Positions 54,145-64,000 of a stretch of 64,000 nucleotides of DNA are shown here, one piece after another. A model generated the notes under the pieces. That model was not told the origin of the DNA. It saw nothing but the letters and a program-made list of their open reading frames with translations, and ran no database searches. The stretch covers positions 434,001 to 498,000 of the forward strand of contig WBOU01000002.1 in NCBI GenBank assembly GCA_009268125.1, given 5' to 3'. How positions within the stretch are numbered: position 1 is the stretch's first letter; each line of letters begins with the position of its first letter. Made by a program: the position numbers and the translations under genes. This stretch comes from Chloroflexia bacterium SDU3-3. Its GTDB lineage: Bacteria; Chloroflexota; Chloroflexia; Chloroflexales; Roseiflexaceae.

Positions 54145-57100
54145 CTACTGGAGCGATCGAAAGATCCGGGCTGGCTCGGAGGCGGGGTCGAGGGCGATGT
54201 GCAGCTCCTGCTGGAAGATGGCGCGGCAGCGGTGGTAGTGGGCTATCGCGGCGGCGCGGTTGCCGATCGCCAGGTAGTAGCGCATCACGCCGCTGTGGGC
54301 CTGCTCGTCGCAGGGGTCGAGCCGCAGCACCTGCTGGTAGGCGTGGTAGGCGTCGAGCCACAGCCGGTGCTGGCTGGCCAGCTCGGCGGCCTGGTGCAGC
54401 GCCGAGCGGTACTGCTCCTCTAGCTCGGCGCGGGTGGCGGCGCACCAGGGCGCGTCGATGTAGGCGAGGTACGACCCATGGTAGTATTCGACCGCGTCCC
54501 AGAGATAGTCCAGCCGCTCGTGGGCCGAGGCCGCGCTGGCCGCGCGCAGCCGCTCGCGGAAGAGTGCCGCATCCCACACCAGCCGCACGGCCTGCGGGTT
54601 GATCGTGTAGCGCTGCTGGCCCGATTTGGTGATCGCCTGATCGGGGAGCAGGCTGCGCAGGCGGTAGATCACGTTGTAGAGCGCGCGGGCGGTGTCCTTG
54701 GGGCTATCCTCGACCCAGATCGCCTCGATCAGCTCCTCGGATGTCGCGCCGCGCGGGTGCGCCGCCAGGTAGGCCAGCACGTGGTGCTCTTTGCGCCCGC
54801 CCAGCTCCAGATCGTGGCCATCGAGCAGCGCGGCGGCGGCGCCCAGCGTATGCAGCTCTAGGGTTGGCAGCGGCACCGGCTGCACCAGCGCGGCGGCCTG
54901 GGCGCGCATCTGGCGCTGGGTTGCCAGCCAGCGGCGGGCCTGGGGCAGCGCCTCGATGCAGCGGCGCAGCATGGCCTGGTGCGGCATGGTGGCGATGATC
55001 AGGATGGCCTCGTGGCCGATCGACTCGGCCACCGCCATGGCCTCGCGCAGCAGCGCCACTGGCTCGGCGCTATCGGCAGGGTTGCGGGCCGAGCAGATCG
55101 CGGCCTGCAGCGCTAGGGCGCGCACCTGGGTGGGCCGTGCGCTGGCCATGCGGGCCTGGGCCACGGCCTCGCGGGCGTGGGCCAGCGCCGCCGCTAGATC
55201 GCCCGCGCCCGCCGCCAGGGTGGCCCGCACGATCAGAGCCAGCGCTGGCTCCTGGCGCTGGGCCGCCTCCTCCAGCGTGTCGAGCGTGCGGGCCGCCTCG
55301 GTGTAGCGCTGCTGGTGGGCCAGCAGCAGCGCCTGCGAGAGCGCCACATGGGCGGCGATGTAGGCGCTACCCCCGGCGCGGCGGGCGCTCTCGTAGGCGC
55401 TGGCGGCCTCCTGCCACTGCCCTAGGTCGGCGGCGATATCGCCCACGGTCGAGAGCACCGCGGCCAGGTACTGCGGGATGGCGGCGGCGCGGGCGTGGCC
55501 GAGGGCCTGCTGGGTGCTCGCCCAGGCCTGCTTGGTCTTGCCCAGCAGGTGCTGGGTGAGCGCCAGGCTGTTGGCGCACAGCGCGTGCAGGCCCTGGTTG
55601 CCCAGCTCGGCCCAGCGCTGCTCGACCTGGATGAAGGCGGCCTCGGCGGCGCGCAGCTCGCCACAGCCGCTGTAGCAGATCGCCAGATCGTAGAGGGTTT
55701 GGGCGTAGGTGAACGAGCTGCCGGTGTGCTCCTCGGCATCCAGCGCGGCCTGCAGGGTGGCGATGGCGGCGCGGCGGTCGCCCAGGCGGTGCTGGGCGAT
55801 GGCGATGGTGCGCATGGCCGCGCCGCGATCGGCGCCACCTGGCGCCCCTGCGAGCACCTGCGAGGCAAAGTCGATGGCATCCTGGTAGCGCCCCGAGACC
55901 CTGGCCAGCAGGGCCTGGGCCAGCAGCACATCGGGGGCTATGGGGGCGGCCTGGGCGGCGCGCTCGATCAGGGCGGCGGCCCGCTGCGGGTTGCCGCGGT
56001 CGAGCTCGACCCGCGCCTTGAGGCAGAGCAGCGGGGCATCCAGCAGGTGCTGCGGGATGGCGGCGAACAGGTGCTCTAGCGTTTCAAGTCGCCCCTGCGC
56101 GTGCAGGTCGTGGCCGCCCGCCTCCAGAATCTGGCGGGCCGACTCCAGGTCGCCCGCCTGCTTGTGCAGGTCGAAGGCCCGCGACCAGTGGCGCTGTCCG
56201 ACGTACAAGCGGGTGAGCCGATCCATAATGGCGCGGTAGCGGGCTGGCTCCAGCCGCCGAAAGCGCGCGATCAGCAGGTCGCGGAAGATCGGGTGGTAGC
56301 GCACCACGCCGGGCAGCAGCTCGCGCACAAACAGCCGCTTGGCCAGCACATAGTCGAGCAGCTCGGCGGAGTCGCAGCGGCCCAGCAGCGCATCGCACTG
56401 GGGGGCTGTCACCTCATCGAGCAGCGAGGTCTCGTGCAGGAAGGTCTGGATGTGCGGGGGCAGGTGGTTGAGGATCTGCTCGGAGAGCAGCCGCTGGGTG
56501 CGCTGGTGGCTGGGCGGCGCTGCGCCGTCGGGGGTTTGCTGGGCCGACTCGACCGCCAGCAAGATCCCGGCGATCCAGCCGTCGTACTCGGCGGCCAGGC
56601 CGCGCACCTGCTCGGGCGGGAGGGCCAGTGTCTCGTCGGCGGCCACCACCGCCATCACCTCGTCGGGCGTAAAGCAGAGCAGTCCCTCATCCAGGCAGAC
56701 AAACTGGCGACGGGCGGTCAGCAGCATCTCGTTTGGCAGCACGGTGCGCTCGCGCGAGGTGAGGATGATGTGCAAATTGGGGCAGTGGGTGGCCAGATCG
56801 GCGATAAGGTGGGCGATCTCGGTAGATGTGCTGACCAGGTGCCAGTCGTCGAGCACCAGGATGGCATCCTGGCCCAGCATGCTGATCTCGCGCATCAGCG
56901 AGGCCACCACCGAGCGCCACATGGGGTGGCCGTTGCTGCCCAGCATGGTCCATGTCTGCGGCAGCGAGGCGGGGAAGGTGCGGCGGATGGCGGCGGCCAG
57001 GTACTCGATAAACACCCACGGGTCGGCATCGTAGCTGTCGAGCATGTACCAGCAGAGCGGGAAGGGCGACACCTGGGCAAAATCGATCAGCAGCGATGTC

Positions 57101-57240
57101 TTGCCATAGCCCGTCGGGGCGGTCACGGCGATGATCTGGCGCTGCTGGACCAGCTTGCAGAAGTACGTGAGCGGCTGCTGGCGCGTGATGAGGTGGTAGG
57201 GGCGCTGTGGGACAAAGATCTTATGCGGTACATCGATCAT
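54145..57240 (-). CDS. MalT-like STAND ATPase + TPR + C-terminal BTAD regulator
   Basis: The 1031-residue protein begins with a MalT/LuxR-type ATPase: Walker A VTAPTGYGKTSLLIDF (about 39-54), LCWYMLDSYDADPWVFIEYLAAAIRR, Walker B DAILVLDDWHLV and HIILTSRERTVLPNEMLL. YDGWIAGILLAVESAQ and a winged-helix-like part (FLHETSLLDEVTAPQCDALLG) follow, then about ten TPR-like repeats (370-770). The C-terminus holds an OmpR-like winged helix (LELGGRKEHHVLAYLAAHPRGATSEELIEAIWVE, about 815-848) and a bacterial transcriptional activator domain (LYLAYIDAPWC-type, ending FQQELHIALDPASEPARIFRSLQ). Such activators often govern secondary-metabolite or secretion loci. It is encoded divergently from a tiny secreted peptide and a response regulator. 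Confidence 0.85.
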   Translation of the reverse strand: MIDVPHKIFVPQRPYHLITRQQPLTYFCKLVQQRQIIAVTAPTGYGKTSLLIDFAQVSPFPLCWYMLDSYDADPWVFIEYLAAAIRRTFPASLPQTWTMLGSNGHPMWRSVVASLMREISMLGQDAILVLDDWHLVSTSTEIAHLIADLATHCPNLHIILTSRERTVLPNEMLLTARRQFVCLDEGLLCFTPDEVMAVVAADETLALPPEQVRGLAAEYDGWIAGILLAVESAQQTPDGAAPPSHQRTQRLLSEQILNHLPPHIQTFLHETSLLDEVTAPQCDALLGRCDSAELLDYVLAKRLFVRELLPGVVRYHPIFRDLLIARFRRLEPARYRAIMDRLTRLYVGQRHWSRAFDLHKQAGDLESARQILEAGGHDLHAQGRLETLEHLFAAIPQHLLDAPLLCLKARVELDRGNPQRAAALIERAAQAAPIAPDVLLAQALLARVSGRYQDAIDFASQVLAGAPGGADRGAAMRTIAIAQHRLGDRRAAIATLQAALDAEEHTGSSFTYAQTLYDLAICYSGCGELRAAEAAFIQVEQRWAELGNQGLHALCANSLALTQHLLGKTKQAWASTQQALGHARAAAIPQYLAAVLSTVGDIAADLGQWQEAASAYESARRAGGSAYIAAHVALSQALLLAHQQRYTEAARTLDTLEEAAQRQEPALALIVRATLAAGAGDLAAALAHAREAVAQARMASARPTQVRALALQAAICSARNPADSAEPVALLREAMAVAESIGHEAILIIATMPHQAMLRRCIEALPQARRWLATQRQMRAQAAALVQPVPLPTLELHTLGAAAALLDGHDLELGGRKEHHVLAYLAAHPRGATSEELIEAIWVEDSPKDTARALYNVIYRLRSLLPDQAITKSGQQRYTINPQAVRLVWDAALFRERLRAASAASAHERLDYLWDAVEYYHGSYLAYIDAPWCAATRAELEEQYRSALHQAAELASQHRLWLDAYHAYQQVLRLDPCDEQAHSGVMRYYLAIGNRAAAIAHYHRCRAIFQQELHIALDPASEPARIFRSLQ

Positions 57241-57638: not shown

Positions 57639-58280
57639 ATGCGGATTCGCGTGTTTCTGATCGATGATCAGGCCATCTACCGCCATGGCCTCAGCGTCCT
57701 GCTTGCGCGCGAGCAGGATCTGGATGTGATCGGCGAGTGCGCCAGCGACGAGCGCCTGTGCGCCCCGCTGGGCGCGGCGCTGCCCGATGTGGTGCTGCTG
57801 GATACGGGCATGGATGGCGAGGGCGGCATCCAGCAGGTGCGCGAGATCGCCCAGGCGATGCCCAGCGCACGGCTGGTGGTGCTTTCCAACTACCGCGATG
57901 TCAAGCACATGCTGCACGCGCTCGACGCGGGCGCGCATGCCTACCTGCTGAAGAACACCTCGCACGACAAGCTGGTGCAGGCCATCCGCGCGGTCTACCG
58001 TGGCCAGCGGCTGCTTGCCCCCGAGATGATGCCGTTTATCGTGGATGGCTACGGCCACCTGCTGGTGCAGGGCGCGGCCCCCGCCGACGCGCGGCTCTCG
58101 CTACAGGAGATCGACATCCTGCAGCTGCTGGCCAGCGGCGCGACCTCGCGCGATATCGCCGAGCGGATGTTCTGGAGCGAGGTGACGGTGAAGCGCAAGG
58201 TGCGCACGATCGAGGATAAGCTCTCGGCTAGCAACCGCGTGCACGCGGTGGCCACCGCGCTGCGGCTGGGCATCATCTAG
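57639..58280 (+). CDS. NarL/FixJ-type response regulator
   Basis: The 213-residue protein has a receiver domain (residues 3-120): IRVFLIDDQAIYRHGLSVLL with the acidic pair, PDVVLLDTGMDGEGG with phospho-acceptor Asp at about 52, VVLSNYRDVKHMLHALDAGAHAYLLKNTSHDKL with the conserved Lys. A LuxR-type HTH follows (LSLQEIDILQLLASGATSRDIAERMFWSEVTVKRKVRTIEDKLSASNRVHAVATAL). No sensor kinase gene is adjacent. GAGAGAGGGGGA precedes the ATG. It overlaps the convergent MFS gene at CTAG and lies at the edge of the peptide cluster. Confidence 0.93.
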   Translation: MRIRVFLIDDQAIYRHGLSVLLAREQDLDVIGECASDERLCAPLGAALPDVVLLDTGMDGEGGIQQVREIAQAMPSARLVVLSNYRDVKHMLHALDAGAHAYLLKNTSHDKLVQAIRAVYRGQRLLAPEMMPFIVDGYGHLLVQGAAPADARLSLQEIDILQLLASGATSRDIAERMFWSEVTVKRKVRTIEDKLSASNRVHAVATALRLGII

Positions 58281-59503
58281 GTGGCCGAGGGCTGGACCTC
58301 GGGGGCGGGCTGCCGCCGCAGGGCCAGCAGGCACACCAGCACCAGGGCGGCCACGCCAGCGGCCCCGCCCACAAAGACCCAGCGCACCGGGATCACGCGC
58401 AGCGACTGGCCGATCAGCAGCGCCGAGATCGGGATGGAGAGCGTGGCCAGCGTCTCAAGGGTGGCGAACACCCGGCCCTGGAACTCGGGCGCGACGTTGC
58501 GCTGCAGCTGTGACACCAGGGGCACCTGGATGATCGGCACCATGCTGCCCAGCAGCGCGGCCATGGCCAGCGAGAGCGCGATGGTGGGCGCGTAGCCCAG
58601 GCCCAGCAGCGCCAGCGCCATGCCCGATAGCCCCACCGCAAACGCCTGCAGCGGCGTCAGGCGGTCGCCGATCACGCCTGCGGCCAGGCTACCCAGCAGC
58701 AGGCCCACCCCCAGCGCCGAGGTGAGCACGCCGAACCCCTGCACCCCGCTGCCCAGCAGATCGGCGTAGATCGGGAACACGATGTTCACCGGGCCGAGCA
58801 GGAAGTTCAGGCAGCAGGCCAGCGCGGTGAGCGCCAGGATCAGCCGCCGCGCAGCGATGTAGCGGAAGCCCTCGGCCAGATCCTGCCAGATCTGGCCTGC
58901 GCCCAGCGCCTTGCTGGCGGTCAGGCGGGCCGGGAACTGCACCAGGCCGAGCATCAGGGCGCACAGGATGAACGAGCCGCCATCCACCAGCAGCGCCGCC
59001 GCCACATCGGTGAAGGTCAGGGCTAGCCCCGCCAGGCTGCTGCCCACGATCAGCGCGGCTTGCATGCCAAACTGGATGGCCGAGTTGGCGGTGGGCAGCG
59101 CCTCGTTTGGCACCACGCTGGGCAGCAGGATGCGCAGCGAGGGCGAGTAGCCCAGCGCCAGCACTGCCAGCAGCACGCTGAAGACGTAGATATGCCCGAG
59201 CGAGAGCATATGCGCCGCCTCTAGCCCGCCCATGGCCAGCAAAATAGCGCCGCGCGCCAGGTCGCAGCCGATCATCAGCGCCTTCTTGCTGACGCGGTCC
59301 ACCACCACCCCGGCCAGCGGCCCCAGCAGCCGGGGCAGCGACTGCAGCGCCAGCGCGGTGGCCACCGCCCCCGCCCCATCGCTTGAGCGCGAGAGCAGCC
59401 ACGTGAGCCCCACCACCGAGAACGCATCGCCCAGGTACGACTGCACCAGGCCGAGCCACAGCAGCAGGAAATTGCGGTTCCAGAGACGAGTTCCAGTGGT
59501 CAT
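58277..59503 (-). CDS. MFS exporter (peptide cluster, copy 1)
   Basis: The ATG at 59503 follows GAGGA and gives 408 residues. It is a 12-helix MFS transporter of the MefA/DHA3-like efflux type: RLWNRNFLLLWLGLVQSYLGDAFSVVGLTWLL, LLGPLAGVVVDRVSKKALMIGCDLARG (the loop 2-3 motif), AAALLVDGGSFILCALMLG, and GVIGDRLTPLQAF. It is a paralogue of the MFS gene at 59839-61071. It follows peptide gene C after a hairpin, so it is expected to be co-transcribed and may export the mature peptide. Its stop shares CTAG with the response regulator. Confidence 0.9.
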   Translation of the reverse strand: MTTGTRLWNRNFLLLWLGLVQSYLGDAFSVVGLTWLLSRSSDGAGAVATALALQSLPRLLGPLAGVVVDRVSKKALMIGCDLARGAILLAMGGLEAAHMLSLGHIYVFSVLLAVLALGYSPSLRILLPSVVPNEALPTANSAIQFGMQAALIVGSSLAGLALTFTDVAAALLVDGGSFILCALMLGLVQFPARLTASKALGAGQIWQDLAEGFRYIAARRLILALTALACCLNFLLGPVNIVFPIYADLLGSGVQGFGVLTSALGVGLLLGSLAAGVIGDRLTPLQAFAVGLSGMALALLGLGYAPTIALSLAMAALLGSMVPIIQVPLVSQLQRNVAPEFQGRVFATLETLATLSIPISALLIGQSLRVIPVRWVFVGGAAGVAALVLVCLLALRRQPAPEVQPSAT

Positions 59504-59539
59504 AGGTTTCATCCTCGGTGCTATGCGAGGGCAAGCCGT

Positions 59540-59569
59540 TCGGGCCAGGGCTTGAATGCCCTGGCCCGA
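59540..59569 (-). terminator. hairpin after peptide gene C
   Basis: TCGGGCCAGGGC pairs with GCCCTGGCCCGA (12 bp, 6-nt loop), 12 bp after the peptide C stop. No T-run on the minus strand, so it is probably a read-through attenuator or mRNA-stabilising structure. Confidence 0.7.
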
Positions 59570-59581
59570 GGCAGACATGGG

Positions 59582-59749
59582 CTAGTAGATGAAGATGATC
59601 TTGGTGGAGTACGGCTGCGGTTCGGGCGTGTGCTCGGCGGCGGCCACCGCCTCGCGCAGCGACTCGCTGTCGACCACCAGATCGCCATCCTCGTTCAGGG
59701 TGAACATATCCGCGTCGAACGACACGTTCTGCTCTTCCACATCCCTCAT
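59582..59749 (-). CDS. candidate RiPP precursor peptide C (55 aa)
   Basis: The ATG at 59749 has an excellent GAAAGGAG site. The peptide has 55 residues. Residues 11-34 carry the leader-like motif shared with peptides A and B: D-A-D-M-F-T-L-N-E-D-G-D-L-V-V, followed by an amphipathic helix LREAVAAAEH. The last 15 residues (TPEPQPYSTKIIFIY) differ from A and B but again end in an alternating beta-branched/hydrophobic stretch (KIIFIY). A conserved leader with a variable tail, next to an MFS exporter, is what RiPP precursors look like. A non-modified bacteriocin-like or signalling peptide is the alternative. The tail has no Cys, so thioether classes are unlikely. The 49-bp promoter element lies 30 nt upstream. 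Confidence 0.72.
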   Translation of the reverse strand: MRDVEEQNVSFDADMFTLNEDGDLVVDSESLREAVAAAEHTPEPQPYSTKIIFIY

Positions 59750-59779: not shown

Positions 59780-59828
59780 AGCCGCAACACTATGTTAGGC
59801 TAGCGCGTCCGCTAGTGAACGCCGTTGG
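59780..59828 (-). promoter_or_regulatory. 49-bp promoter/operator element upstream of peptide C
   Basis: This element is identical at 48 of 49 positions to 63558-63606 upstream of peptide A, at almost the same distance from the start codon. It contains the perfect dyad CTAGCG-CGTC-CGCTAG (59800-59815). On the minus strand TTCACT and CATAGT flank the dyad with a 19-bp spacer, like a MerR-type or operator-blocked promoter. The only difference changes the TGACATAGT of copy A to TAACATAGT here. Confidence 0.75.
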
Positions 59829-59838
59829 AGGGCTGTCG

Positions 59839-61071
59839 CTAGCTGGGCGAGGGCTGGGCCTCGGGCAGCGCCTGACGGCGCATGGCCAGCAGGCACACCA
59901 GCACCAGGGCGGCCACGCCTGCGGCCCCGCCCCAGAACACCCACGACAGCGGGAATAGGCTGAGCGACTGGCCCGCCAGCAGCGACGCCAGCGGGATGGA
60001 GATCGTCATCATCGTGTCGATGGTGGCGAAGACCCGGCCCTGATACTCTTGCGGCACGCTGCGCTGCAGCAGCGAGACCAGCGGCACCTGGATGATCGGG
60101 GCCATGCTGCCCAGCAGCACGGCCAGCCCCAGCGCCAGCGCGAACACCTGGGCATAGCCCAGGCCCAGCAGCGCCAGCGCCATGCCCGATAGCCCCAGCG
60201 CGAAGGCCTGCAGCGGCGTCAGGCGGTCGCCGATCAGGCCTGCCAGCAGGCTGCCCACCAGCAGACCCGCCGCCAGCGCCGAGGTGAGGATGCCGAAGCC
60301 CTGCACACCGCTGCCCAGCTGCTCGGCGAAGATCGGAAAGATGATATTCACCGGGCTGAGCACCAGGTTGAGGCAGAACGCCAGGCCCGCTAGCGCTAGG
60401 ATGGTGTGCTTGGTGGCGATGTAGCGGAACCCCTCGCCGATATCGCCCCACACCTGGCGCGGGCTGAGCGCGCTGCTCTTGGTCATGTCGGCGGGGAAGC
60501 GCACGAAGCACAGCATCAGCGCACACACGAAGAACGACCCGGCGTCGATCAGCAGGCCCGCCGCCACATCGGTGAAGGCCAGCAGCGCCCCGGCCAGGCT
60601 GCCGCCGCCAATCAGCGCGGCCTGCAGGCCGAACTGCAGCGCCGAGTTGGCGCTGGGCAGCGCGGTGTCGGGCACCACCTTGGGCAGGATGACCCGCAGC
60701 GACGGCATGTAGAAGATCGAGAGCAGCGACATGAGGATGATGAAGATGTAGATCTGCCAGATCGCCAGCATGCCCATCGATTCGAGCAGAAACATGGCCC
60801 CCAGCAGCACGCCGCGCGCCAGGTCGCATCCGATCATCAGCGCCTTCTTGTTGGTGCGGTCCACCACCACCCCGGCCAGCGGCCCCAGCAGCTTGGGTAG
60901 CGCCTGGATGCCCAGCGCCGTGGCCACCACCGTGGGCGAGCCGGTGGTGTTCAGCAGCAGCCATGTGAGCCCCACGGTGTAGAAGGCGTCGCCGAGGTAG
61001 GACTGGATGAGCCCCAGCCACAGCAGCAGAAAGTCGCGGTTCCACAGGCGGGTCGGCGCTGGTGTTGTCAT
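59839..61071 (-). CDS. MFS exporter (peptide cluster, copy 2)
   Basis: The 410-residue, 12-helix MFS protein is a clear paralogue of copy 1: RLWNRDFLLLWLGLIQSYLGDAFYTVGLTWLL, LGPLAGVVVDRTNKKALMIGCDLARGVLLG, GLIGDRLTPLQAFALGLSGMALALLGLGYA, QGRVFATIDTMMTISIPLASLLAGQSL. The family includes drug and peptide exporters. It follows the winged-helix regulator at 22 bp and precedes the promoter element of peptide C. It is probably the last gene of the operon that begins with peptide A. Export of, or immunity to, the mature peptide is the inferred role. Confidence 0.9.
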   Translation of the reverse strand: MTTPAPTRLWNRDFLLLWLGLIQSYLGDAFYTVGLTWLLLNTTGSPTVVATALGIQALPKLLGPLAGVVVDRTNKKALMIGCDLARGVLLGAMFLLESMGMLAIWQIYIFIILMSLLSIFYMPSLRVILPKVVPDTALPSANSALQFGLQAALIGGGSLAGALLAFTDVAAGLLIDAGSFFVCALMLCFVRFPADMTKSSALSPRQVWGDIGEGFRYIATKHTILALAGLAFCLNLVLSPVNIIFPIFAEQLGSGVQGFGILTSALAAGLLVGSLLAGLIGDRLTPLQAFALGLSGMALALLGLGYAQVFALALGLAVLLGSMAPIIQVPLVSLLQRSVPQEYQGRVFATIDTMMTISIPLASLLAGQSLSLFPLSWVFWGGAAGVAALVLVCLLAMRRQALPEAQPSPS

Positions 61072-61093: not shown

Positions 61094-61645
61094 TTACTTG
61101 GCCACCGGATAGAGCGCCAGCGCCATGCCGAAGCTTTCCTCAGAATCCTCCTCCTCGGCGTCGCTGAAGGCCTGGGCCAGCTCCTCCAGCCGCCGCAGGA
61201 ACTCGGCGGCGCGGGCGGGGCGCAGCTTGCAGTGCGTCATCTTCAGCGCCATCACGGTGGCCTGGGCCTGCTGCTCATCCAGCTGGGCCACGTTGGTGCG
61301 CAGGGTCTGGCTGATCAGCTCGACCACGGCCATGCGGCTCTGCGATGCGTTGCGGTCGCGCACCATAAAGACGGTCTTGGTGTCAGTCAGGGCGTAGTAC
61401 TGCTCGCGCCGCCCGCCCTCGTTGGTCTCGCGGTAGAGGTAGACATCGCCGCATTCCAGAAAGCGGTCGATGATGAACTGGATGCGCGCGCGGTTCAGCC
61501 CCAGCCGTACCGCCAGCTGGCGGGTGGTGGATGGGTTGTCCATCAGCGCGTTCATCACGGCGAATCCGCCCTCGCTCAGCACATCGATCGCCTCGTTATC
61601 GGCCAAGCGCACATGCATCGCGGCGGAGAGATCGGCCTGATCCAT
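61094..61645 (-). CDS. winged-helix regulator of the peptide cluster
   Basis: The 183-residue protein has an N-terminal winged helix: LSEGGFAVMNALMDNPSTTRQLAVRLGLNRARIQFIIDRFLECGDVYLYRETNEGGRREQYYAL (about 23-87), with recognition helix RARIQFIIDRF and a basic wing NEGGRREQYY. A helical C-terminal half (about 100-165) follows, with an acidic AEEEDSEESF stretch near the end. The layout resembles ArsR/MarR-like regulators with an extra helical sensor domain. It sits between the M16 peptidase and the MFS gene and is the obvious candidate to bind the dyad in the 49-bp elements. AAAGGAG precedes the ATG. Confidence 0.75.
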   Translation of the reverse strand: MDQADLSAAMHVRLADNEAIDVLSEGGFAVMNALMDNPSTTRQLAVRLGLNRARIQFIIDRFLECGDVYLYRETNEGGRREQYYALTDTKTVFMVRDRNASQSRMAVVELISQTLRTNVAQLDEQQAQATVMALKMTHCKLRPARAAEFLRRLEELAQAFSDAEEEDSEESFGMALALYPVAK

Positions 61646-61666: not shown

Positions 61667-62920
61667 CTAGATCAGCTGTAGCAGGCTTTCCTGCTTGGGG
61701 CCAAGGCCAACGATCGCCACGTTCTCGGGCACGAAGATCTCGCGGGCGGCGCGGGCGATGTCCTCGCGGCTCACCGCATCGATGCTGCGGGTCTCCACAT
61801 CCACAAAGAAGTTGTCGCCCAGGATGGCGCGGCGGCCCATGATCTGCAGGTGCTGGCTGCTATTTTCTAGCACGCCGAACAGCGCGGTGGTGCGCGCCGC
61901 CTTCACGCGGCCCAGCTCGCTCTCGCTCACGCCATCCTGCTTGATCTTCTCTAGCTCCTCGCCGATCGTCTGGTAGACGCGCTCCATGTCCTTCTGCTCG
62001 CAGTTGACCTTGAAGGCGATGTAGCCGCCCACGCCGTAGGTGACGGTGTAGGCGTGCACCAGGTAGGCCAGCTGCTGGCGCTCGCGCAGCTCAAGGAACA
62101 GGCGCGACTTCAGGCCGCCGCCCAGCGCGTCGGCCAGCAGATCCATGGCGTGGCGGTCGTGCGAGAGGAACGAGGCCCCAGGGTAGGCGAACAGCAGGTC
62201 GATGCGCTGGCTGCTGGTGGGCAGGGCGATCACACGCGGCTCGGTCTGGATGGGCAGGTCGAGCGTGCGGCTCGGCTGGGTCTCCCACGCGCCAAAGTAG
62301 CGCTCGACTATGTCGGAGAAGCTGGCGAAGTCGATCGGGCCAAGCGCCACCAGGGTCATGCGGTCGGCCACGTAGTTCTGCTGCAGCCGCTGCTCGATGG
62401 CGTCGCGGTCGAAGCGGCTGATGTTCTCCTTGCGCCCGATCACAAACAGCCCCACCGAGTGATCGCCCCACATGGCGTTGTCGAGCAGCTCTTTTAGCAC
62501 ATTGCTGGATGAGAAGGCCATGGAGTGCTCGTGGAGGATGATCGAGCGCTCGTGCTCGATCACATCTACCGAGGTCTGCTTGCTGCTGGCGATGATGCTC
62601 AGCAGGTGCAGCGCGCGCTCAAGCAGATCGGGGCGGCAGTTCACCACGAATCGGGTGTACTCTTTGCTGGTGTAGGCCTCGTAGCTCACGCCCGCGTCCA
62701 TCAGGTCGTTCAGCAGCGAGCGCACGTGCGCGGGCATGTGGTTGGGGTTGAAGATCACATGCTCGATGTAGTGGGCGATCCCGTTGCTTTCGTAGTCCTC
62801 GTGCTGCGAGCCGTGGCCGATGTAGAGGCCCAGGTTGATCGTGCGCTGGTGGTGGTGGGGCTTCAGGCGCACCTGCAGCCCATTGCTCAGCACGGTCTGG
62901 ATGATTGTCTCTTTTGCCAT
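61667..62920 (-). CDS. M16-family zinc metallopeptidase
   Basis: The ATG at 62920 (MAKETIIQTVLSNGLQVRL) follows GGATCGGCG; 417 residues, the size of single-unit M16 peptidases such as YmxG or the mitochondrial processing subunit. The inverted zinc motif HxxEH is HYIEH (about 50-54) in GIAHYIEHVIFNPNHMPA, with a downstream acidic residue expected in VSYEAYTSKEYTRFVV. The C-terminal half has YGVGGYIAFKVNCEQKDMERVYQ and FVPENVAIVGLGPKQE. M16 enzymes remove presequences and, in several RiPP pathways, leader peptides. Its place between the precursors and the exporter makes it the likely leader peptidase here. Confidence 0.9.
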   Translation of the reverse strand: MAKETIIQTVLSNGLQVRLKPHHHQRTINLGLYIGHGSQHEDYESNGIAHYIEHVIFNPNHMPAHVRSLLNDLMDAGVSYEAYTSKEYTRFVVNCRPDLLERALHLLSIIASSKQTSVDVIEHERSIILHEHSMAFSSSNVLKELLDNAMWGDHSVGLFVIGRKENISRFDRDAIEQRLQQNYVADRMTLVALGPIDFASFSDIVERYFGAWETQPSRTLDLPIQTEPRVIALPTSSQRIDLLFAYPGASFLSHDRHAMDLLADALGGGLKSRLFLELRERQQLAYLVHAYTVTYGVGGYIAFKVNCEQKDMERVYQTIGEELEKIKQDGVSESELGRVKAARTTALFGVLENSSQHLQIMGRRAILGDNFFVDVETRSIDAVSREDIARAAREIFVPENVAIVGLGPKQESLLQLI

Positions 62921-63028: not shown

Positions 63029-63051
63029 GGCCCCAGCCAGCGGCTAGGGCC
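63029..63051 (-). terminator. hairpin abutting the stop of peptide gene B
   Basis: GGCCCTAGCC and GGCTGGGGCC (minus strand) form a 10-bp stem with one mismatch and a 3-nt loop. It begins next to the peptide B stop codon and has no T-run. Confidence 0.55.
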
Positions 63052-63255
63052 TTACTCCACCTGAAGCGATACCGAGATCCCGCCCTGCTCTGGCGGGTCG
63101 TCGGATGGGGTGGGGGCGTTGGCGATCTGCTGCGCCAGCTCGTCCTGCTGGATGATCAGCTCGCCCTGCTCGTTCACCGTGAACTGGTCGGGCAGCAGGC
63201 TGGCAGCTTGCGCGTTCGCCGCCCCACGCTTGCGGCCCTTTTTCTGCGTGGCCAT
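63052..63255 (-). CDS. candidate RiPP precursor peptide B (67 aa)
   Basis: The ATG at 63255 follows AAAGGAAAGG. The 67-residue peptide has a basic N-terminus (MATQKKGRKRGAA), then the shared leader motif at 23-37 (D-Q-F-T-V-N-E-Q-G-E-L-I-I) and the helix QQDELAQQIANAP. The tail TPSDDPPEQGGISVSLQVE ends in an alternating small/hydrophobic strand. The leader is closest to peptide A (both end the helix with NAP). No Cys is present. It lies 82 bp after peptide A, separated by a hairpin, and 131 bp before the M16 peptidase gene. Confidence 0.75.
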   Translation of the reverse strand: MATQKKGRKRGAANAQAASLLPDQFTVNEQGELIIQQDELAQQIANAPTPSDDPPEQGGISVSLQVE

Positions 63256-63302: not shown

Positions 63303-63330
63303 GGGGCCAGGGCTGTGCGGCCCTGGCCCC
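63303..63330 (-). terminator. hairpin between peptide genes A and B
   Basis: GGGGCCAGGGC pairs perfectly with GCCCTGGCCCC (11 bp, 6-nt loop), 7 bp after the peptide A stop. Without a T-run it probably lets part of transcription through to peptide B. Confidence 0.75.
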
Positions 63331-63337
63331 AAGAGCA

Positions 63338-63526
63338 CTAGGAAACCGAGACGCTCACGCCGACCGTGATGGTGCCCGCCTCGGGGGACTGGGCTACCTC
63401 TGGCGCGTTCTTGATGGCCTGGACGATCTCATCGTTCTTGATCACCAGCTCGCCCTTCTCGTTGAGGGTGAACTGGTCGGCGCTCAGCTGAAGTTTCTGG
63501 TCTTCGTGAAAGGTCTCGTCTGCCAT
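63338..63526 (-). CDS. candidate RiPP precursor peptide A (62 aa)
   Basis: The ATG at 63526 has an excellent AAGGAG site, giving 62 residues. Residues 1-14 are acidic/polar (MADETFHEDQKLQL), 17-29 carry the motif D-Q-F-T-L-N-E-K-G-E-L-V-I, and 31-41 a helix NDEIVQAIKNA. The tail PEVAQSPEAGTITVGVSVSVS ends in a Val/Ser alternation that recalls beta-helical or extended RiPP cores. No Cys. The gene sits just downstream of the 49-bp element and of a putative radical-SAM maturase gene, and heads the run peptide A - peptide B - M16 peptidase - regulator - exporter. That these are modified peptides is an inference; the shared motif is seen directly. Confidence 0.77.
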   Translation of the reverse strand: MADETFHEDQKLQLSADQFTLNEKGELVIKNDEIVQAIKNAPEVAQSPEAGTITVGVSVSVS

Positions 63527-63557: not shown

Positions 63558-63606
63558 AGCCGCAACACTATGTCAGGCTAGCGCGTCCGCTAGTGAACGC
63601 CGTTGG
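63558..63606 (-). promoter_or_regulatory. 49-bp promoter/operator element upstream of peptide A
   Basis: This copy carries the same CTAGCG-CGTC-CGCTAG dyad (63578-63593). On the minus strand TTCACT, a 19-bp spacer with the dyad, and the extended -10 TGACATAGT are present; the element ends 31 nt before the peptide A start. It begins 6 bp after the stop of the putative maturase gene. Confidence 0.75.
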
Positions 63607-63611
63607 GAATG

Positions 63612-64000
63612 CTAGGCCTCTACCATCTCGGGGCTGGGCGCTGGTGCGCCGAGCCGGATGGTGGTGGCCCCGCTGGATGCGGTGCCGATCTGGGTGATCA
63701 GCGCCTGGAGATTTTCAAGTACGGCTTTGCTGGGCGTGTAGCTGCCCAGTGGCACCGCTAGGCCCAGGTACAGCCCACCGCCGCCGCGCAGCATCACGTG
63801 CTGGTCGCACAGCGGCTGCAGCAGCTCGTCGATCTGGCCGGGCGCGGCTGGCTCGCCGCTATGCTCAAGGTAGATCTGCTCCAGCGCGCGGGTGGTGCTG
63901 GCCTGGTCGCAGGCTAGGTAGAGCGCCCGCTGCACACCGGTGAGCGTGATCAGGCGGTGCGGCAGGTTGGCGCGCAGATCCCAGATCAGCAGGTAGCTAC
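63612..64000 (-). CDS. C-terminal part of a putative radical-SAM RiPP maturase (runs off the right edge)
   Basis: Only the last 129 or so residues are in the window; the frame is open to base 64000. They read SYLLIWDLRANLPHRLITLT, then GVQRALYLACDQASTTRALEQIY, a helix, LCDQHVMLRGGGGLYLGLAV, and a low-complexity ending SPEMVEA. The W-D-x-R strand, the helix ending in CD, and the closing L-Y-L-G-L-A-V strand resemble the winged-helix-like C-terminus of B12-type radical-SAM RiPP maturation proteins, as I remember that family. No cluster-binding CxxxCxxC is visible because that part is outside the window. Other modification enzymes or a plain regulator are possible. Its location directly upstream of the precursor genes supports a maturation role. 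Confidence 0.45.
   Translation of the reverse strand, partial: SYLLIWDLRANLPHRLITLTGVQRALYLACDQASTTRALEQIYLEHSGEPAAPGQIDELLQPLCDQHVMLRGGGGLYLGLAVPLGSYTPSKAVLENLQALITQIGTASSGATTIRLGAPAPSPEMVEA

Follow-up and report, generated by a model that had tools for sequence, protein, structure and literature searches.

Two stretches of non-coding DNA, each 49 bp long and each placed shortly before a gene for a small precursor peptide, are almost the same in a Chloroflexota genome of 6.76 Mb, while the sequence around them has diverged. Both lie in one RiPP cluster near the end of the window, that is, the whole stretch of 64,000 nucleotides analysed here. The locus raises the question of what such twin blocks do: whether they switch the precursor genes on and off together, whether they are the traces of recent copying, or whether they act in the transcript as RNA.

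Gene content of the cluster

The cluster is read from the minus strand in the order radical SAM, element A, precursor A, hairpin, precursor B, hairpin, M16 peptidase, winged-helix protein, MFS1, element C, precursor C, hairpin and MFS2. The first gene, of which the 3' part occupies 63612..64000 and the start lies beyond the window, encodes a B12 radical-SAM RiPP C-methyltransferase of 681 aa; this maturase matches TIGR03975 (rSAM_ocin_1) at 669 bits, against a curated cutoff of 282, and the C-methyltransferase activity is predicted. Downstream follow an M16 (insulinase/PqqF-like) peptidase at 61667..62920, a probable leader protease, a MarR-like winged-helix protein of 183 aa at 61094..61645, a candidate local regulator, and MFS transporter 1 at 59839..61071. 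MFS transporter 2, at 58277..59512, is a paralogue of the first, with 77% nucleotide and 68% amino acid identity.

Three precursor genes are interleaved with these enzymes and transporters, all on the minus strand. Precursor A (62 aa, 63338..63526) has the Shine-Dalgarno sequence AAGGAG, the leader motif DQFTLNEKGELVI and the C-terminus TITVGVSVSVS; precursor B (67 aa, 63052..63255) has no element of its own and is presumably read from element A; precursor C (55 aa, 59582..59749) carries the leader motif DMFTLNEDGDLVV and ends in PYSTKIIFIY. A and C have 31% of their residues in common. In a profile search of the genome, A, B and C were the sole matches, which suggests that they are its whole set of precursors. 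The cluster resembles TIGR03975 clusters in that its maturase belongs to the family and differs from them in its precursors, none of which matches a Pfam or NCBIfam family.

Related gene sets, consisting of a B12 radical SAM, one to three precursors, an M16 peptidase, a winged-helix protein of about 185 aa and an MFS transporter, are present in four further genomes, G036 (locus L032), G352 (L061), G470 (L062) and G460 (L063). The G036 cluster is syntenic with the one described here, with identities of 58% for the radical SAM, 62% for M16 and 51% for MFS. Small leader-core precursors stand beside the maturase, three here and three in G036, and similar ones in G352, G460 and G470; the precursors end in alternating tails rich in Val, Ile and Ser (VGVSVSVS, VGIVIEF, VGVVVSF, VAVIF). 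No published description of the combination of radical SAM, precursor, M16, winged helix and MFS was found in the searchable literature.

Twin blocks with sharp edges

Element A (63558..63606, minus strand), one of the two genomic copies, begins 5 nt past the stop codon that closes the radical-SAM gene, and 31 nt separate its end from the start codon of precursor A. Its counterpart, element C (59780..59828, minus strand), begins 10 nt past the stop codon of MFS1, with 30 nt between its end and the start codon of precursor C. The two agree at 48 of 49 bases, or at 50 of 52 when three more bases are included. Counted in blocks of 10 nt, the identity between A and C is 1 upstream, then 10, 10, 10, 9 and 9 within the element, and 5, 3, 3 and 1 downstream. 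The edges of the blocks are sharp, and identity drops to background on either side. A renewed reading of the window and this block-wise comparison bear out what the preliminary description had reported, namely the coordinates, the 48/49 match, the distances of 30 and 31 nt to the start codons and the unconserved flanks.

Since no other place in the 64-kb window matches the 49-mer at more than 28 of its 49 positions, the likeness of A and C is far beyond chance. The coding sequences of MFS1 and MFS2 also contain one stretch that is identical at 48 of 49 positions, so such a length is not unique among the paralogues of this cluster; what stands out is that the near-identity of A and C lies in non-coding DNA and that their flanks have diverged completely.

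The search of the genome for further copies, which the preliminary description had proposed, returned exactly two with up to 3 mismatches allowed, both before precursors. A high-copy dispersed repeat of the REP or MITE kind is ruled out by this number and by the position of each copy ahead of a precursor. A third genomic match, at C8:123127 (91% over 23 nt), falls where an ABC-transporter ATPase gene ends and is attributed to chance. The two copies are confined to this one cluster, on the 5' side of precursor units. A search of a further 157 genomes from the class was negative, as were those of phages, plasmids and viral contigs. In the related clusters, the best agreement with the core of the element was 16-19 of 27 positions, about the window background of 17-18; none of the related clusters examined contains the element, not even the syntenic one in G036, so no phylogenetic footprint backs it.

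Promoter-like hexamers and a palindrome

Each block contains hexamers that could form a core promoter. For copy A, the putative promoter (63567..63597, minus strand) would be TTCACT-N19-CATAGT with a TG before the -10 box, or alternatively TTCACT-N16-TGACAT; for copy C (59789..59819, minus strand), it would be TTCACT-N16-TAACAT or TTCACT-N19-CATAGT. The hexamers fit the consensus at 4/6 and 4/6 positions, with a spacing of 16 bp (C) or 19 bp (A and C), and neither copy passes the filter of a standard sigma-70 consensus scan. Scored with an approximate sigma-70 matrix of hexamer frequencies, the best reading of copy C, TTCACT-N16-TAACAT, reaches 7.7, a score that 99.7% of random minus-strand windows of 49 nt fall short of, and that of copy A, TTCACT-N19-CATAGT, reaches 5.5, above 97.7% of random windows. 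The prediction of the preliminary description that C is the weaker promoter is not supported, as the second -10 register of C scores above A: the extended -10 (TGACATAGT) argues for a weaker C and the 16-bp register for a stronger one, and either copy may be the stronger.

With CATAGT taken as the -10 box, the block would span from about -47 to +2 and leave a 5' UTR of about 32 nt, in which a Shine-Dalgarno sequence, AAGGAG or AAAGGAG, precedes the ATG.

Within the block lies a perfect dyad, CTAGCG-GACG-CGCTAG, at 63578..63593 in element A and at 59800..59815 in element C (no strand assigned), which is a putative operator. Perfect dyads of the form 6-N4-6 are common as a class, with 41 in the 64-kb window; the exact CTAGCG-N4-CGCTAG dyad occurs at these two places only in the 6.76 Mb genome. 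The preliminary description was right that the dyad is perfect in both copies, but it does not lie between the two hexamers, as had been stated: the final two bases of TTCACT are already part of it. A palindrome that overlaps the putative promoter in both copies is what a MarR-type operator would look like. Past the end of the window, some 180 nt ahead of the radical-SAM gene, another perfect dyad, TGATAC-GAAG-GTATCA (L003 9834-9849), stands right after a terminator-like hairpin behind a patatin-like gene; it has the geometry of the dyad in the elements and another sequence, and chance alone yields a 6-N4-6 dyad in roughly every 1.5 kb.

MerR-family promoters have a 19-bp spacer with a central dyad, and the present blocks resemble them in the 19-bp spacer of one reading and in the 6-N4-6 dyad. 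The MerR type was rejected by the position of the dyad, the centre of which is displaced by 3.5 bp from the middle of the spacer towards -35; further differences are the rival register with its 16-bp spacer and the lack of a MerR gene among the cluster genes examined.

Matched hairpins behind the precursors

Directly behind precursor A, at 63304..63329 (minus strand), a hairpin of the form GGGCCAGGGC-N6-GCCCTGGCCC is found, with a folding z of -4.4 over a slightly longer stretch. The same stem with another loop follows precursor C at 59542..59567 (minus strand; z -4.7, again over a slightly longer stretch), while the hairpin behind precursor B, GGCCCTAGCC-GCT-GGCTGGGGCC at 63029..63051 (minus strand; z -3.2), has a different stem. 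The stretches behind A and C fold far more stably than their shuffles. The 20 bases of the A and C stems are identical in spite of the 31% identity of the precursors themselves, and this matched 3' stem is the new observation at the locus. The stem occurs three times in the genome, the third case being an intergenic hairpin elsewhere that is flanked by T. The A and C stems have no T-run and so are not classical intrinsic terminators; most likely, they would limit read-through or protect the 3' end of a short precursor mRNA.

In RiPP operons such as that of lanA, a 3' stem-loop behind the precursor gene is the usual arrangement. The present cluster is similar, with GC-rich hairpins directly behind A, B and C, and hairpins also follow two of the three precursors of G036; unlike the lanA type, it combines an identical A/C stem with an identical 5' block, giving a matched pair of cassettes. 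Little or nothing was found in the literature on lanA stem-loops or on M16 peptidases with radical-SAM RiPPs. The G036 hairpins (L032 4424-4456 and 4753-4787), behind its precursors 1 and 2, are strong and have a T-rich tail. These cases suggest that 3' hairpins are a general trait of such precursor genes.

With a 5' block and a 3' stem in common, the repeated unit consists of element, precursor and hairpin. Block and stem might mark the ends of an exchangeable cassette, through which recombination inserts, duplicates or swaps precursors, a proposal that we consider highly improbable; if it were true, incoming precursors would keep the same promoter and 3' structure, and the cluster could diversify its peptides. 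In G470, a precursor is tandemly repeated together with its upstream region. An inverted repeat, GGCTAACG...CGTTAGC(C), lies inside this larger tandem duplication, where it precedes two of the three tandem precursors (L062 7320-7352 and 7901-7933), and is possibly an operator or a terminator.

A shared promoter, copied DNA or an RNA element

Taken together, each block is probably a core promoter into which a palindromic operator is built, and the pair would drive the precursor units in concert and apart from the enzyme genes. What follows on transcription from the blocks, on the dyad as an operator and on its regulator is inferred from the sequence. The block, from about -47 to +2, would head a precursor unit made up of the element, a 5' UTR of about 30 nt with its Shine-Dalgarno sequence, the precursor gene or genes and a 3' GC hairpin. 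A palindromic operator of 16 bp would overlap the -35 box and the spacer, and one dimeric DNA-binding protein would control both units together through the two copies. Precursor mRNA could in this way be made in excess of, and apart from, the interleaved enzyme and transporter genes.

Several observations favour this promoter and operator reading. Only two copies exist in 6.76 Mb, at a fixed 30-31 nt before precursor starts, and precursor B, which lacks the element, sits directly behind A. Conservation stops at the limit expected of a core promoter, and the 5' UTRs have diverged. Only 2.3% of random windows score as high as the sigma-70-like pair of A and only 0.3% as high as that of C, the exact dyad is unique to the elements, and A and C have a 3' stem in common. 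Co-regulated precursor promoters, as first proposed, are the best available reading and one that we favour with some confidence, given the restriction to the cluster, the place beside the precursors and the length of a core promoter. Against it stand the 4/6 hexamers, the failed consensus filter and the lack of a copy in relatives; a promoter alone, moreover, needs no 48/49 fixed bases, and the runs in the MFS genes would fit gene conversion.

The last point leads to the view that the blocks are alike through recent copying or homogenisation, by a short duplication or by gene conversion when the precursor cassette was duplicated, and that only the hexamers matter. MFS1 and MFS2 differ at 32% of synonymous sites; were the element as old as their duplication, the probability that its 49 bp had undergone no more than a single change would be about 1.5e-7, which points to constraint or to later copying. 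The longest runs between MFS1 and MFS2, 43 nt without and 49 nt with one mismatch, are slightly longer than expected (codon-permutation p 0.017 and 0.03), and the patchy identity of the two genes around precursor C is possibly due to gene conversion. The element, being absent in relatives, may also be young. Copying does not readily account for the abrupt ends of the block, its diverged flanks and the diverged precursor right behind it (31% aa), and a tract of 49-52 bp that matches the footprint of a core promoter would be a coincidence. We regard copying as unlikely; constraint is the better reading of the 48/49 identity, short of proof.

Alternatively, the block could serve as an RNA element in a read-through operon transcript, as a site of intercistronic processing or as a stabilising or attenuating structure. 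Both blocks lie 5-10 nt past a stop codon, two adjacent hairpins are possible, and the two A/G differences (positions 33 and 50) both still pair with U in the 3' hairpin. The 49-mer nevertheless folds like its shuffles (z -0.1 and -0.8), a longer stretch is weak (z -1.3), the A and C structures differ in their native context, and no Rfam family is matched. A role in RNA is accordingly quite improbable.

Candidate regulators

Under the promoter and operator reading, a regulator has to be sought. The preliminary description had named the 183-aa winged-helix protein, which as an autoregulating repressor of the elements would be part of that reading and not an exclusive rival to it. By sequence, it is a true MarR/TrmB-like winged helix (its structure prediction, made without an alignment, had a pLDDT of 36 and was not used), and the related clusters likewise have a winged-helix gene between the peptidase and the transporter. 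In a class-wide profile search, G036 was the sole match besides the genome itself; the winged-helix proteins of G352, G460 and G470 are more distant, were found from ORFs and show 16-18% identity in the two that were aligned. The dyad lies over the -35 box and the spacer, as repressor sites often do, and the gene of the protein would itself be transcribed from element A.

The G036 orthologue speaks against the pairing of protein and dyad. It is 30% identical, and its putative recognition helix, TTRQLAxRLxxNRARxQ, is nearly unchanged, yet no site resembling CTAGCG-N4-CGCTAG adjoins any precursor in that cluster, the sole syntenic one found. A site is thus not kept where the helix is kept, which weakens the pairing and leaves the protein only a candidate. 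Genes for other regulators lie close by, at 54145-57240 for a BTAD/winged-helix protein and at 57639-58280 for a LuxR-type response regulator, and the 183-aa protein could also be a leader-binding helper in peptide maturation. The balance leans to the negative, and its role as repressor of the elements is a tentative and somewhat doubtful proposal.

Known systems and significance

Common regulatory DNA before several peptide operons is a known principle, as in bacteriocin regulons, and the analogy may extend to the present cluster. Putative promoters with paired direct repeats have been described for ubericin K, in a paper that cites plantaricin, sakacin and Blp (PMC8515946), and for gassericin E (PMC4788914). 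In these bacteriocin regulons, as would be the case here, one regulatory DNA element occurs in several peptide-gene promoters and permits joint switching. Those regulons have short direct repeats upstream of -35 that are read by a response regulator, itself activated by a peptide pheromone. In the present cluster, the shared DNA is a single block of 49 bp whose repeat is inverted and sits at the -35 box and spacer, and no dedicated pheromone system was recognised.

If the promoter and operator reading is right, the element would offer a way to find out under which conditions this uncharacterised RiPP cluster of a Chloroflexota type is switched on, and the precursors could be expressed through it apart from the maturase. 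The element itself may be less interesting than the RiPP family of radical SAM, M16, winged helix and MFS, which several genomes of the phylum contain.
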